Shown: in pieces, positions 18,329-45,284 of the stretch
Layout: each line of letters starts with the position of its first letter
How positions within the stretch are numbered: position 1 is the stretch's first letter
Source of the DNA: a virus
Virus record (IMG/VR): IMGVR_UViG_3300046167_000503
Span: 1-45,837 of that record
Reading direction: 5' to 3' (one strand)
Length of the DNA stretch: 45,837 nt
Translations under genes and position numbers: made by a program
Notes under the pieces: model-generated
What the model was told of the DNA's origin: nothing
Databases searched by the model: none
What the model saw: only the letters and a program-made list of their open reading frames with translations

Positions 18329-18856
18329 ATGGCAATCTTAGGAGTCGATGACTTTAAATCCAAACTGCGAGGCGGTGGTGCTAGACCAAACCTGTTCAAA
18401 GCGACCATCAACTTTCCGGTTTATGCAAACGGTGATGTCGAACTGGCATCATTCATGTGTAAAGCGGCGCAGTTACCGGCATCATCAACCAACATGTTAC
18501 CTGTTCCATTTCGTGGACGGGAACTAAAAGTTGCAGGTGATCGTACGTTCGAAGACTGGACCGTTACTATCATTAACGATACAGACTTTACCGTACGTGA
18601 TGCAATGGAGCGTTGGATGAATGGTATCAATGCACATAGCGCCAATACTGGTCTCACTAACCCAGTTGACTATCAAGCAGACTTGATCGTCGAGCAACTG
18701 GACCGTGATGAGTCAGTCATTAAGAAGTATAACTTCCGCGGCGCGTTTCCCGTGTCTGTAGGATCAATCGTTCTTGATTACGATACTCGTGATCAGTTAG
18801 AAGTGTTTGATGTTACATTCTCTTATCAGTATTGGGAAAGCAACACAACGAGTTAA
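18329..18856 (+). CDS. gp19: gp19 tail tube protein
   Basis: 175 residues (T4: 163), preceded by AGGAGAATAAGC. The sequence has the tube fold pattern: LFKATINFPVYANG, FMCKAAQLPASS near the start; VPFRGRELKVAGDR then FEDWTVTIINDTDFTVRDA in the middle; and a terminal VFDVTFSYQYWESNTT. Subunits stack as hexameric rings inside the gp18 sheath and conduct DNA. A related but diverged copy lies at 34469. A hairpin follows the gene and separates it from gp20. Confidence 0.95.
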   Translation: MAILGVDDFKSKLRGGGARPNLFKATINFPVYANGDVELASFMCKAAQLPASSTNMLPVPFRGRELKVAGDRTFEDWTVTIINDTDFTVRDAMERWMNGINAHSANTGLTNPVDYQADLIVEQLDRDESVIKKYNFRGAFPVSVGSIVLDYDTRDQLEVFDVTFSYQYWESNTTS

Positions 18857-32696: not shown

Positions 32697-32723
32697 GGGG
32701 AGACTTTTAGTCTCCCTTTTTTT
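32697..32723 (+). terminator. Rho-independent terminator after gp23
   Basis: GGGAGAC, loop TTTTA, GTCTCCC, then seven T residues: a 7-base-pair GC-rich stem with a classical U-tail. It ends the head-gene transcript and separates it from the accessory envelope cassette. Confidence 0.92.
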
Positions 32724-32744
32724 GCATAAGGAAACTAACATCAT

Positions 32745-33107
32745 ATGAAGAAATTAGCAATTGGTCTCATGACCTTTTTGCTATGTTTTAGTAATACAGT
32801 AAACAGTAAAGAGTGGAGTGAACGAGAAAAACAAATCTATTACTTTTATACTGGAGCAGTAATCGCAGATGGATTACAATCTGCAACTGCGATGAGAGAA
32901 GGTGGGTATAAAGAATCAAACCCTCTTTATGGTAACCGCATAAGCGACGAAGAAATCCTCGCAAGCACAATCCTTAGTTTATGGGGAATGCACTGGATGA
33001 TTGAGAAGGACGCCCCAGAATGGTTGCTCTGGACGATCACCGCTGGTAGATTTGCTGTAGTGGTCAATAACCACGAAGTCGGAGTGCGTATAAACATTAG
33101 ACTTTAA
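32745..33107 (+). CDS. Accessory secreted or membrane protein with signal peptide
   Basis: 120 residues, AAGGAAACTAACATCAT before the ATG. The N-terminus MKKLAIGLMTFLLCFSNTVNS is a clear Sec signal peptide (cleavage probably after VNS). The mature part has YYFYTGAVIADGLQSATAM, YKESNPLYGN and a weakly hydrophobic segment (ILSLWGMHWMI), with a second one near the C-terminus. The 'YTGA..AD..QS..A......ESNP(L/I)(L/Y)G' arrangement recalls small uncharacterised bacterial inner-membrane proteins. It is the first gene after the gp23 terminator, in a cassette of three envelope proteins. Function unknown; modification of the infected cell envelope is a reasonable inference. Confidence 0.75.
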   Translation: MKKLAIGLMTFLLCFSNTVNSKEWSEREKQIYYFYTGAVIADGLQSATAMREGGYKESNPLYGNRISDEEILASTILSLWGMHWMIEKDAPEWLLWTITAGRFAVVVNNHEVGVRINIRL

Positions 33108-33121
33108 CAGAACCTTAACAA

Positions 33122-33138
33122 AAGATTGATCCAATCTT
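33122..33138 (+). other. Short AT-rich hairpin between envelope genes
   Basis: AAGATTG, loop ATC, CAATCTT: a perfect 7-base-pair inverted repeat 14 bases after the stop of the 120-residue gene. There is no U-run, so it is at most a weak terminator or RNA-processing structure. Confidence 0.35.
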
Positions 33139-33161
33139 AACTTAATCCAATAGTCATTTAC

Positions 33162-33169
33162 TGTAAATA
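33162..33169 (+). promoter_or_regulatory. Possible late promoter (TGTAAATA, one mismatch)
   Basis: TGTAAATA differs from the late consensus at one position and lies 26 bases before the ATG at 33196, the same distance as for other late promoters here. It could start a transcript for the beta-strand protein and the permease-like gene. Supporting evidence is limited to position and similarity. Confidence 0.4.
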
Positions 33170-33195
33170 ATAGTAGCAAATAACAGGATGCTACT

Positions 33196-33501
33196 ATGAA
33201 AATGATTATTGGATTTCTATTTCTCTTCGTGCTAATTAATGCCCATCACAAGGCGTTAGCAAACCCCTACATAGAATACAAACGTGAGGACAACACTGTT
33301 CGTCACACCCATCAAGAACATCTGCGTGTAGGTTATAAAGCAGATAACAATCTCTACATTGAAGCAGGCACCATGACTGACAATAAGATCAGTGTGGAGA
33401 CTGGTTACAAGTTCAAGCAAAACAACTGGGTGTTCAAAGGTAAATTTGAACTGAAAGATAAAAGCGAAAAACTTGAAACTGAAATAAGGTATACATTCTG
33501 A
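33196..33501 (+). CDS. Small secreted beta-strand protein, possible mini outer-membrane protein
   Basis: 101 residues with CAGGATGCTACT before the ATG. A signal peptide (MKMIIGFLFLFVLINAHHKALA, shown here split: hydrophobic core IGFLFLFVLI, cleavage after ALA) is followed by about 79 residues of alternating polar/hydrophobic strands: HLRVGYKAD, LYIEAGTMTD, ISVETGYKFK, WVFKGKFELKD. It ends LETEIRYTF with a terminal Phe, the signature used by outer-membrane beta-barrels for Bam recognition. With about six strands it is too small for a porin, but it could form an oligomeric barrel or sit as a periplasmic sheet. No named family is recognised. Stop and next ATG overlap by one base. Confidence 0.72.
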   Translation: MKMIIGFLFLFVLINAHHKALANPYIEYKREDNTVRHTHQEHLRVGYKADNNLYIEAGTMTDNKISVETGYKFKQNNWVFKGKFELKDKSEKLETEIRYTF

Positions 33502-34433
33502 TGGACACAATGACTCTTGTTTGGACCATGCTTGGATTTGGTCTAGCATCTTACTCCGTTCTTGCAAACGATTCTATTCAAACTCTTGGTACTTGGATGG
33601 CGAGTAATCGTCAAGTCAAGTGGCAATACCTCTGGGCAGGTGCGAGTACAGTTCTCGTGTTTGCGCTCTGGTACGGTTGGGGAATGTACGGTGACATATC
33701 GTATGGGCGACTCGATAAGATTCCTTATGTTGACCCTCAATGGTATCATGCCGCCGCACCCGCAGTTCTTCTACTACTCACCCGCATAGGTGTACCCGTG
33801 AGTACATCGTTCCTTGTACTCTCAGCATTTGCATCAACATTTGTACTAGAGAAAATGTTAGTTAAATCCTTTGCAGGATATGGTGTTGCCGCAGTGAGTG
33901 CATACGTATTGTGGGCAATCGTTACCAAGTACATGCAGAATGTCAATCTTGGTGGTAGTGACACACAATGGCGAGTCGCACAGTGGGTCGTTACTGGATG
34001 GTTGTGGTGGACTTGGTTAAGTCACGATATGGCAAACATCGCAGTGTTCTTGCCTCGTGAGATCTCTGCGGAAATGCTTGTGGGTATCTCAGTATTATTT
34101 GTTGCTGGTCTTGCGTTTATGTTTCAAGAACAGGGTGGTAAGATCCAACAGATTGTCCGACAGAAAACTAGCACACAATACGTAAAGAGTGCGACACTGA
34201 TTGATCTGATTTATCTGATCATTCTGTTCTACTTCAAGCAGTACAACAACATCCCGATGTCAACGACTTGGGTGTTCATTGGTCTGCTGAGTGGTCGTGA
34301 ACTGGCAATTCAAACGTTTGCAAACAAACTGCCTGCAAAAGCATACCCGATTATCGCCAAAGACTTTGGTAAATTAATGGTTGGTGTGGGTGCATCTTTA
34401 GGAATTATTGTGGGTATTCATACTTTCACTTAG
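33501..34433 (+). CDS. PiT-type (inorganic phosphate permease-like) membrane protein
   Basis: 310 residues with about 8-9 hydrophobic segments. The N-terminal LANDSIQTLGT (residues about 21-31) resembles the 'GANDVANSFGT' signature of PiT sodium/proton-phosphate permeases. Each half has the partner motif: GVPVSTSFLVLSAF (about 97-110) and NIPMSTTWVFIGLLSGREL (about 250-268), matching 'PVSTTHA' in the inverted repeat of that family. The second ND motif is not obvious, so transport activity is uncertain. I have seen the general type as uncharacterised bacterial membrane proteins. In a phage it could alter phosphate uptake or act as a receptor-type or exclusion factor. Coupled to the secreted gene upstream. 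Confidence 0.75.
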   Translation: MDTMTLVWTMLGFGLASYSVLANDSIQTLGTWMASNRQVKWQYLWAGASTVLVFALWYGWGMYGDISYGRLDKIPYVDPQWYHAAAPAVLLLLTRIGVPVSTSFLVLSAFASTFVLEKMLVKSFAGYGVAAVSAYVLWAIVTKYMQNVNLGGSDTQWRVAQWVVTGWLWWTWLSHDMANIAVFLPREISAEMLVGISVLFVAGLAFMFQEQGGKIQQIVRQKTSTQYVKSATLIDLIYLIILFYFKQYNNIPMSTTWVFIGLLSGRELAIQTFANKLPAKAYPIIAKDFGKLMVGVGASLGIIVGIHTFT

Positions 34434-34441
34434 TATAAATA
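34434..34441 (+). promoter_or_regulatory. T4-type late promoter
   Basis: Exact TATAAATA directly after the stop of the permease-like gene and 27 bases before the ATG at 34469. It gives the tail-tube-like gene its own late transcript, independent of the envelope cassette. Confidence 0.72.
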
Positions 34442-34468: not shown

Positions 34469-34957
34469 ATGGCAGACTTTACTTGCAACACAAATTATTT
34501 AACACCGACTGGATTTAAGATCACGATTAGTCGCACAGACTATCCGAATCTTCAATTCTTTGCTCAACAGGTGCAACATCCATCAATGGACATTGGTGTA
34601 ACCGAGGTGGGTCGTCCTAGACTCGCCTCGTTGCCCTTTACCGGTGATGCGATTCAACACGCCAGTGTAAACATGGATGTGATTCTCGATGAAGAGATGA
34701 AAGTCTATGAAGAATTGTACACATGGATGGAGCGTCTGGTGAACGAACCCCACACGTTACCCACGGGTGACGGCACTGCATCTTACAACGATATTCGCGT
34801 GTCGATACTAAATAGCAATAACAATCCTATTCGTACGATACAATACGTCAATGCATTCCCCATCATGATTGGTGACATCACATTGGCGGCGACAAGCGAA
34901 GAGCAGTTTATTACATTCCCCGCATCATTTAGATTTGATTACTTTAAGTTTTTATGA
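34469..34957 (+). CDS. Second tail-tube-like (gp19-family) protein
   Basis: 162 residues. The layout follows the tube fold: a start FTCNTNYLTPTGFKITISR, then YPNLQFFAQQVQHPSMD, a middle LPFTGDAIQHASVNMDVILD with a 'YEELYTWMERLVNE' helix, and a terminal FITFPASFRFDYFKFL. It is a diverged paralogue of gp19 at 18329. T4 baseplate and tube-end proteins such as gp54 and gp48 contain tube-like domains, so this may be a tube initiator or terminator ring rather than the main tube; which one is not decidable here. It is the last late gene before the recombination block and has a late promoter. Confidence 0.72.
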   Translation: MADFTCNTNYLTPTGFKITISRTDYPNLQFFAQQVQHPSMDIGVTEVGRPRLASLPFTGDAIQHASVNMDVILDEEMKVYEELYTWMERLVNEPHTLPTGDGTASYNDIRVSILNSNNNPIRTIQYVNAFPIMIGDITLAATSEEQFITFPASFRFDYFKFL

Positions 34958-42046: not shown

Positions 42047-42664
42047 GTGAAAGATTTTCTTTGGTGCGAAAAGTACCGACCTCAAACAATTGCGGATTGT
42101 ATTCTACCGTCCGAACTTAAATCTGTATTTACTAAGATCGTCGAGACTGGTGAACTACCTAATATGTTGTTCACTGGTACCGCTGGTCTTGGTAAAACCA
42201 CAGTTGCTCGTTGCCTAGCAAATGAACTCGATCTCGATTATATCGTGATCAATGGTTCAGAAGAAGGTAACATTGATACCCTACGCGGCAAGATCAAACA
42301 GTTTGCTTCGAGTGTATCTCTCAATGGCGATGTCAAAGTTGTCATACTTGATGAGGCAGATTATCTGAATGCTCAATCGACACAACCTGCCTTGCGTGGG
42401 TTCATCGAAGAGTTCTCAGATAACTGCCGATTCATTCTCACCTGTAATTTCAAGAACCGTATCATCGAACCACTCCACTCACGGTGTGGTGTCTATGAGT
42501 TCAATACGTCCAAGAAAGACATGCGAGTCCTCTGTGAACAAATGATGAAGCGTATCAAGTTCATCATGACCGAAGAAGGGTATGCCAGTCGGCGGCCCTA
42601 CAATGCAAGGCATCGCAGAACTCATCATGCGACATGCCCCAGATTGGCGCCGAGTACTCAATGA
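42047..42664 (+). CDS. gp44: gp44 clamp-loader ATPase, N-terminal part (frame broken)
   Basis: 205 codons from GTG 42047 (TTGGAGATATT before it). WCEKYRPQTIADCILP, Walker A GTAGLGKTTVAR, Walker B VVILDEADYLN and the sensor/arginine-finger segment LTCNFKNRIIEPLHSRCGVY are intact, marking the AAA+ large subunit. From about residue 178 the frame turns into an unrelated Arg-rich tail (YASRRPYNARHRRTHHA). Removing one G from GGG at 42578-42580 yields EEGMPVGGPTMQG and joins the C-terminal collar, giving a 311-residue protein (T4: 319). Gp44 and gp62 load the gp45 ring on primer ends. Confidence 0.9.
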   Translation: MKDFLWCEKYRPQTIADCILPSELKSVFTKIVETGELPNMLFTGTAGLGKTTVARCLANELDLDYIVINGSEEGNIDTLRGKIKQFASSVSLNGDVKVVILDEADYLNAQSTQPALRGFIEEFSDNCRFILTCNFKNRIIEPLHSRCGVYEFNTSKKDMRVLCEQMMKRIKFIMTEEGYASRRPYNARHRRTHHATCPRLAPSTQ

Positions 42665-42983
42665 GTTACAACGCAGTTCGATCTCTGGTGTCCCGGTGTC
42701 ATCTAGGTCTGGCACCGAAGATATCAACGACTTGATCGTGGCACTCAAAGACAAGAACTTTAAGAAGATGCGGCAATGGGTTACAGATAACGTCGATGTT
42801 GATGCGTCCTCTATCTTTCGTGGACTATATGATAAGATGAATGATCGTATAGTTCCAGCATCAATACCACAAACGGTACTGATACTCGCTGACTATCAAT
42901 ACAAAAATGCATTCGTTGCAGATCATGAACTTAATGTAGTTGCCTGTATGACTGAGATCATGGCAAACGTAGATTTCAAATGA
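42582..42983 (+). CDS. gp44: gp44 clamp-loader ATPase, C-terminal part in the +1 frame
   Basis: Continuation of gp44: PTMQGIAELIMRHAPDWRRV, LNELQRSSISGVPVSSRSG (the LNELQR segment is standard in gp44), then FRGLYDKMNDRIVPA, LILADYQYKNAFVADHELNV and VACMTEIMANVDFK. This is the collar-type domain that completes the clamp loader. Its ATG has no ribosome site and is internal to gp44, so it is not an independent gene. The stop overlaps the gp62 ATG (ATGA). Confidence 0.9.
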   Translation: MPVGGPTMQGIAELIMRHAPDWRRVLNELQRSSISGVPVSSRSGTEDINDLIVALKDKNFKKMRQWVTDNVDVDASSIFRGLYDKMNDRIVPASIPQTVLILADYQYKNAFVADHELNVVACMTEIMANVDFK

Positions 42984-44817: not shown

Positions 44818-44855
44818 AGACAACAATCTTGCTTAAATTAAATAAGGAGATAGCA

Positions 44856-45284
44856 ATGGTTACTACACGAACAAAAGTGTTTTCGTTCCCCCACTCTCGT
44901 TTCATTGGTTTCGACCATGTCTGGGATGAGATAGAAAGACTAACTGCCGCAGGCGCAAACGAGAAGGGTTTTCCTCGTCACAATATTATCAAATATTCTG
45001 ATACGGATTACGCCATGGAGTTTGCCCTAGGCGGTTATGCAAAGAAAGATCTAGACATTGAAGCAAAACCTGGTGTACTAGTGATCAAGGGAAACCCAGA
45101 AGAGGATACGAGAGAGTATCTTCACAAAGGGATTACTACGAAGAAATTCGTGGAAACATTTCGACTCGCAGACCACGTTGTCGTTGATGGAGCGGAATTC
45201 GTCAACGGACTACTAGTGATTAAACTCAGAGTAGAACTGCCCGAAGAGAAGCGTCCGAGAAAAATAGAAATCAATTCTCAATAA
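44856..45284 (+). CDS. hsp20: Small heat-shock protein (Hsp20/IbpA family)
   Basis: 142 residues from ATG 44856 (TAAGGAGATAGC before it); an upstream ATG lies before that site and is rejected. The alpha-crystallin domain runs from about residue 40 (YPRHNII-like FPRHNIIKYSDTDYAMEF) through GYAKKDLDIEAKPGVLVIKG, YLHKGITTKKFVETFRLADH and the terminal NGLLVIKLRVELPEE with an IxI-type ending (KIEIN). Hsp20 chaperones hold unfolding proteins. The gene is frequent between regA and gp43 in marine T4-like phages, where a role in folding or protecting phage proteins during infection is assumed. Confidence 0.92.
   Translation: MVTTRTKVFSFPHSRFIGFDHVWDEIERLTAAGANEKGFPRHNIIKYSDTDYAMEFALGGYAKKDLDIEAKPGVLVIKGNPEEDTREYLHKGITTKKFVETFRLADHVVVDGAEFVNGLLVIKLRVELPEEKRPRKIEINSQ

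Follow-up and report, generated by a model that had tools for sequence, protein, structure and literature searches.

A two-gene phage cassette pairing a small outer-membrane-type protein with a PiT-like permease is likely to import phosphate under host Pho control

A genome fragment of a marine T4-like phage carries, among its head and tail genes, a compact cassette that most likely feeds phosphate to the infected cell. The stretch we analysed (IMG/VR record IMGVR_UViG_3300046167_000503, positions 1 to 45,837; hereafter the window) is 45,837 nucleotides long, and the cassette within it consists of two genes, B and C, plus a promoter in the gap between B and the ORF that precedes it (gene A). 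The unit is conserved and transferable. Its proposed role follows from the linkage of B, a small signal-peptide beta-strand protein, and C, a diverged PiT-type permease, behind what is probably a host-regulated switch. We consider it likely that the Pho boxes, B and C form a phosphate-import module switched on via the host PhoB, with a PiT permease replacing PstS, and that this route is most likely related to, but different from, the pstS cassette of cyanophages. Host PhoB control of phage phosphate genes is already known, and so, separately, are PiT genes in viruses.

Table 1. Features of the cassette and its borders, in window coordinates
Feature	Position	Strand	Remark
gp23 rho-independent terminator, upstream border	32697..32726	+	9-pair stem 32697-32717, then T run
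Gene A, orphan ORF, 120 aa, hydrophobic leader, judged outside the cassette	32745..33107	+	
Tandem Pho-box-like array, 11-bp period	33103..33142	+	TTTAACA 33103, CTTAACA 33114, ATTGATC 33125, CTTAACT 33136
TAAATA, candidate -10 of a Pho-type promoter	33164..33169	+	placed by eye, weak
Gene B, 101-aa signal-peptide beta-strand protein, probable distant Phage_OMP/DUF680 relative, last residue Phe	33196..33501	+	
Gene C, 310-aa diverged PiT-superfamily permease	33501..34433	+	
TATAAATA, downstream border; T4-type late promoter serving the gp19-like gene that follows	34434..34441	+	

The cassette is flanked by gp23 (PF07068, E 3e-143) and a gp19-like tail-tube gene (phrog_45). A first-pass annotation had placed three ORFs here, between a terminator behind gp23 and a late promoter, and all of these elements were recovered (Table 1). 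The downstream motif, TATAAATA, occurs at 6 sites in the window, all on the + strand, where 1.7 would be expected, and is also found 3' of C in a related contig (L003). B and C share one base (TGATG), an overlap that probably couples them and agrees with the earlier proposal that at least two of the genes are coupled. The same annotation treated A, B and C as one self-contained set expected to recur elsewhere, and this holds for B and C alone. In six IMG/VR contigs (L001-L006), B and C lie between gp23 and gp19 and A is absent; the gp23 terminator is followed directly by a Pho-box sequence and B, and the gene order gp21, gp22, gp23, gp19, uvsY, uvsW, gp55 is unchanged as far as each contig reaches. 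DNA alignments of the window to L003 and L001 place A almost entirely within a gap, and a search for relatives of A that included Pfam, PHROGs and NCBIfam found none. We therefore rejected the three-gene unit in favour of the two genes and their promoter. In C48C1, the nearest named phage by gp23, the tail-tube gene is directly 3' of gp23 and the cassette is absent. The window itself holds two gp19-like tail-tube paralogues (phrog_45), at 18329-18856 and 34469-34957, the second directly 3' of the cassette.

Gene C had been described as a PiT-like permease, and profile and fold comparisons uphold that description. C by itself falls below the cut-off of the Pfam family PHO4 (PF01384; E 0.057, 12.8 bits vs a cut-off of 33.7), and 7 of 15 of its relatives match that family, the best at E 6e-6. 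A 59-row profile of C matched only one PDB entry with E up to 10, the phosphate transporter 6l85 (E 3.2e-6), with a strong second half, a weak first half and the order of the two kept. The same entry was the only match at E < 0.001 in a fold search with the predicted structure of C (pLDDT 82, pTM 0.81), at E 2e-4, probability 1.00 and TM 0.62. C shares with PiT/PHO4 proteins (PF01384; 6L85) the fold, the two inverted halves and the P-V/M-S-T-S/T and N-D motifs; it differs from them in its length (310 aa), which is shorter, in its sub-cut-off Pfam score, and in carrying ANDSxQ in the first half and SHDMAN in the second instead of GANDxAN. Within the PiT signature, P-V-S-T-S and P-M-S-T-T are kept, N-D stands in half one and H-D-x-A-N in half two, and other positions are changed, while NDS-x-QTLGT, PVST, HD-x-AN and PMSTT are invariant across the C family. 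On these sequence and model comparisons, C is best described as a diverged PiT relative and not as a formal member of PF01384, and its substrate would be phosphate. Bacterial relatives with 55-62% identity occur in SAR11 and other Alphaproteobacteria and in Flavobacteriales.

Gene B, which has the hydrophobic leader and terminal Phe noted in the first pass, is one of a family that numbers at least 39 distinct phage sequences and in which certain Lys/Arg positions are invariant. Within this family, 30 of 39 members match PF24653 (Phage_OMP, a cyanophage outer-membrane-like beta barrel; best 3.4e-9) and 29 of 39 match phrog_417, and the B profile scores 25.5 bits on the P-SSM2 protein PSSM2_247. 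The window's B searched alone against family profiles, PF24653 among them, gave no match. Judged at the level of the family, B is probably distantly related to Phage_OMP/DUF680. Its model shows six strands in addition to a signal helix (pLDDT 82.6, pTM 0.57), and fold matches were weak and none significant; several of them were outer-membrane barrels, including KdgM, and six strands fit no known monomeric outer-membrane barrel. We lean slightly towards B being an outer-membrane channel. Assignment of B to a known porin was rejected after no PDB sequence match and no significant fold match were found, as was the NCBIfam porin OmpL, which reached E 0.0022 only, far below the family cut-off. B was found in 0 of 299 bacterial host genomes of one phylum, a count that shows little because the search had no positive control. 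The envelope placement suggested earlier remains plausible as an inner- and outer-membrane pairing of C and B, with the insertion of B into the outer membrane as its predicted part.

In four further loci (L010, L017, L018 and L203), a secreted beta-rich protein of 181-205 aa occupies the place of B upstream of a PiT-like gene; it has no detectable homology to B and is possibly a full-size barrel with an equivalent job. For the 181-184-aa versions preceding C in L010, L017 and L018, hhalign gave a probability of homology to B of 3%, so these proteins look like analogues of B.

The gap between A and B contains a Pho-box-like promoter region that is the cassette's own and that the first pass had missed. 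It reads TTTAACA-N4-CTTAACA-N4-ATTGATC-N4-CTTAACT, the first box overlapping the stop codon of A, and so presents the tandem, 11-bp-spaced boxes upstream of a gene by which Pho regulon promoters are recognized. When scored as three tandem YTTAAYYW units (consensus PyTTAAPyPyT/A as quoted in PMC10976474), the site at 33114 ranks best of 91,616 window positions on both strands, and the 11-bp periodicity of the array exceeds that of shuffles. Sites with p < 0.05 were found at 11 of 29 non-redundant B loci vs 3 of 248 starts of control genes from those loci (Fisher exact 7e-10, an optimistic value since the B loci are partly related), and the same scorer finds a site upstream of P-SSM2 g247 (p 0.024). 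From these sequence features, the cassette promoter is probably controlled by the host phosphate-starvation regulator. Pho-box prediction in phages is considered unreliable without binding tests (PMC10976474). A scan of the window with the E. coli-type consensus CTGTCAY gave no signal, and a scan with the pattern CTTAACA, being derived from the site itself, is not independent evidence.

It could instead be supposed that the array is a chance repeat in an AT-rich region and that the cassette is expressed by read-through or as part of a phage late operon, free of phosphate control. The candidate -10, TAAATA, does resemble the late motif TATAAATA, the scores in L001 and L003 are weak (p 0.06-0.07), and the consensus was picked only after the repeat had been spotted by eye. 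We nevertheless regard this as unlikely, since the array is the window's best site by a published consensus, sites are enriched at B loci over control starts, and L009 carries a perfect E. coli-type box pair instead, yet keeps the 11-bp register. In L126 and L127, a TonB-receptor-like ORF (judged by sequence) is located upstream of a Pho-box-preceded B gene.

Comparison with related contigs indicates how the cassette travels. Between the window and L003, DNA identity is about 79% at the gp23 end, 86% in the Pho-box stretch, 90-98% across the whole of B and C, and about 60% in gp19, an identity profile from which B and C move as one block. Relative to L001, C is 81-94% identical and B 71-79%; with B less similar than C, the block can itself recombine. 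The synonymous divergence of C exceeds its non-synonymous divergence in both comparisons (0.23 vs 0.021 for L003; 0.44 vs 0.022 for L001), indicating purifying selection.

The genes found next to B and C elsewhere are related to phosphate. Among 72 B loci with room for a following gene, C follows B in 14 and no PiT gene lies behind B in 58. PstS adjoins B in two loci (L171 and L181) and stands before C in two others (L219 and L231); its identity rests on PF12849 matches at about 1e-48 (L171, L181 and L219), on TIGR02136 (E 1e-38, L171) and, for L231, on sequence judgement. The phage neighbours of C are PstS or beta-rich secreted proteins, unlike those of PiT/PHO4 genes. In bacteria, Porin_O_P adjoins the C relatives of L030, L059, L031 and L035 (matches at E 6e-72 and 7e-73), and C relatives lie behind PhoR-kind histidine kinases (L031, L038 and L050 tested). 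Porin_O_P (OprP/OprO, PF07396) is an outer-membrane phosphate channel paired there with a C-like permease, as is proposed for B; it is, however, large (366-471 aa in these loci), whereas B has about 80 mature residues and no homology to it. The direct succession of a PstS-like and a PiT-like gene in the phage contigs L219 and L231 is an unusual pairing of binding protein and permease. Two contigs of the Rhodobacteraceae bin Water_Bin34 that carry a PiT-like gene (L026 and L033) resemble phage contigs, and in L026 a porin-like ORF lies behind that gene.

These neighbours bear on whether C carries phosphate at all. C stands apart as a subfamily of its own, with altered motifs and a low PHO4 score, and its relative is followed by an SBF-family transporter gene at four loci in Flavobacteriales, so that C might move another anion (e.g. 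arsenate or sulfate) or act as an exporter, with Pho control a mere cue and B a general diffusion channel. We find this improbable, as the adjoining PstS, Porin_O_P and PhoR-like genes and the Pho boxes all indicate phosphate.

The closest known counterpart is the cyanophage DUF680/Phage_OMP (PF24653, phrog_417)-pstS cassette. In P-SSM2 (PSSM2_246-248), pstS comes immediately after two PF24653 genes, PSSM2_246 and 247, and in 39 of 39 cyanophage records common to both listed tables a PF24653-type gene lies on the same strand as the PstS match, its end 6-129 bases ahead of it. Zeng and Chisholm reportedly found in 2012 that g247, beside pstS, responds to phosphate starvation together with pstS. 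Both systems occur in T4-like marine phages and share a small signal-peptide beta-strand protein gene with a Pho box upstream, placed directly before a phosphate-uptake gene. They differ in that the partner of B is a PiT-type permease and not PstS, C standing in the window where pstS stands in cyanophages; B is also too distant from the cyanophage DUF680 members for direct BLAST, and no isolate carries the B-C pair, unlike the cyanophage cassette. DUF680 and PstS are the cyanophage genes given as over-represented at BATS in the phosphorus-poor Sargasso Sea (PMC3686209). Viral PiT genes have been described from algal viruses and from a single metagenome clone, where a phage ORF is the neighbour (PMC3429862), and pit from soil phages (PMC10987575). 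Like C, these were proposed to aid phosphate uptake; porins and Pho boxes go unmentioned in the soil-phage paper, and no outer-membrane partner appears in the passages of PMC3429862 consulted. The open-licence papers searched yielded no report of a Phage_OMP relative paired with a PiT permease.

Under our favoured phosphate-import reading, phosphorylated host PhoB would bind the box array at low phosphate and recruit host RNA polymerase, and a coupled mRNA would yield both proteins. B would be exported and form, in the outer membrane, a small channel that lets phosphate pass, or a subunit of one, and C would serve the inner membrane as a PiT-type permease coupled to ions, so that the infected cell could import phosphate for phage DNA synthesis, to the presumed benefit of the phage. 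Phosphate supply was among the roles first suggested for these genes, and it draws support from the homology of C to 6L85, the Pho boxes, the gene neighbours and the apparent kinship between B and the DUF680 protein of cyanophages. Small envelope proteins that act in exclusion or receptor masking are encoded by T4 relatives, and B resembles a small surface protein, but the other roles suggested, superinfection exclusion or receptor masking with B covering or blocking an outer-membrane phage receptor and C altering the inner membrane, gain no support and are very improbable given that the Pfam, PHROGs and NCBIfam matches of A, B and C include no exclusion family, that C is a conserved transporter also present in bacteria, and that promoter and neighbours are phosphate-linked.

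A wider, tentative proposal, to which we give somewhat less than even credence, is that Phage_OMP-like proteins are a phage-specific family of minimal phosphate pores: induced by PhoB and about 80 residues long when mature, they would assemble into outer-membrane channels and be partnered interchangeably with PstS in cyanophages or PiT in other marine phages. If so, the virus would have a phosphate route across both membranes. The cassette ties cyanophage DUF680, an unexplained protein, to a testable role, and it suggests that phages other than cyanophages share this host-regulated layout but employ another transporter. Uncultured marine viruses commonly carry the PiT-like gene (at least 578 stretches in IMG/VR match it), yet searching 50,697 phage records directly with B and C gave no hit; the strategy would be a widespread one that the isolate record misses.

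Elsewhere in the window, the clamp-loader large subunit (phrog_168) is split between two overlapping ORFs, 42047-42664 and 42582-42983, whose frames differ; the frameshift is either genuine or an assembly error. A gene at 44829-45284 encodes a small heat-shock protein of the Hsp20 type (phrog_432, E 4e-30).
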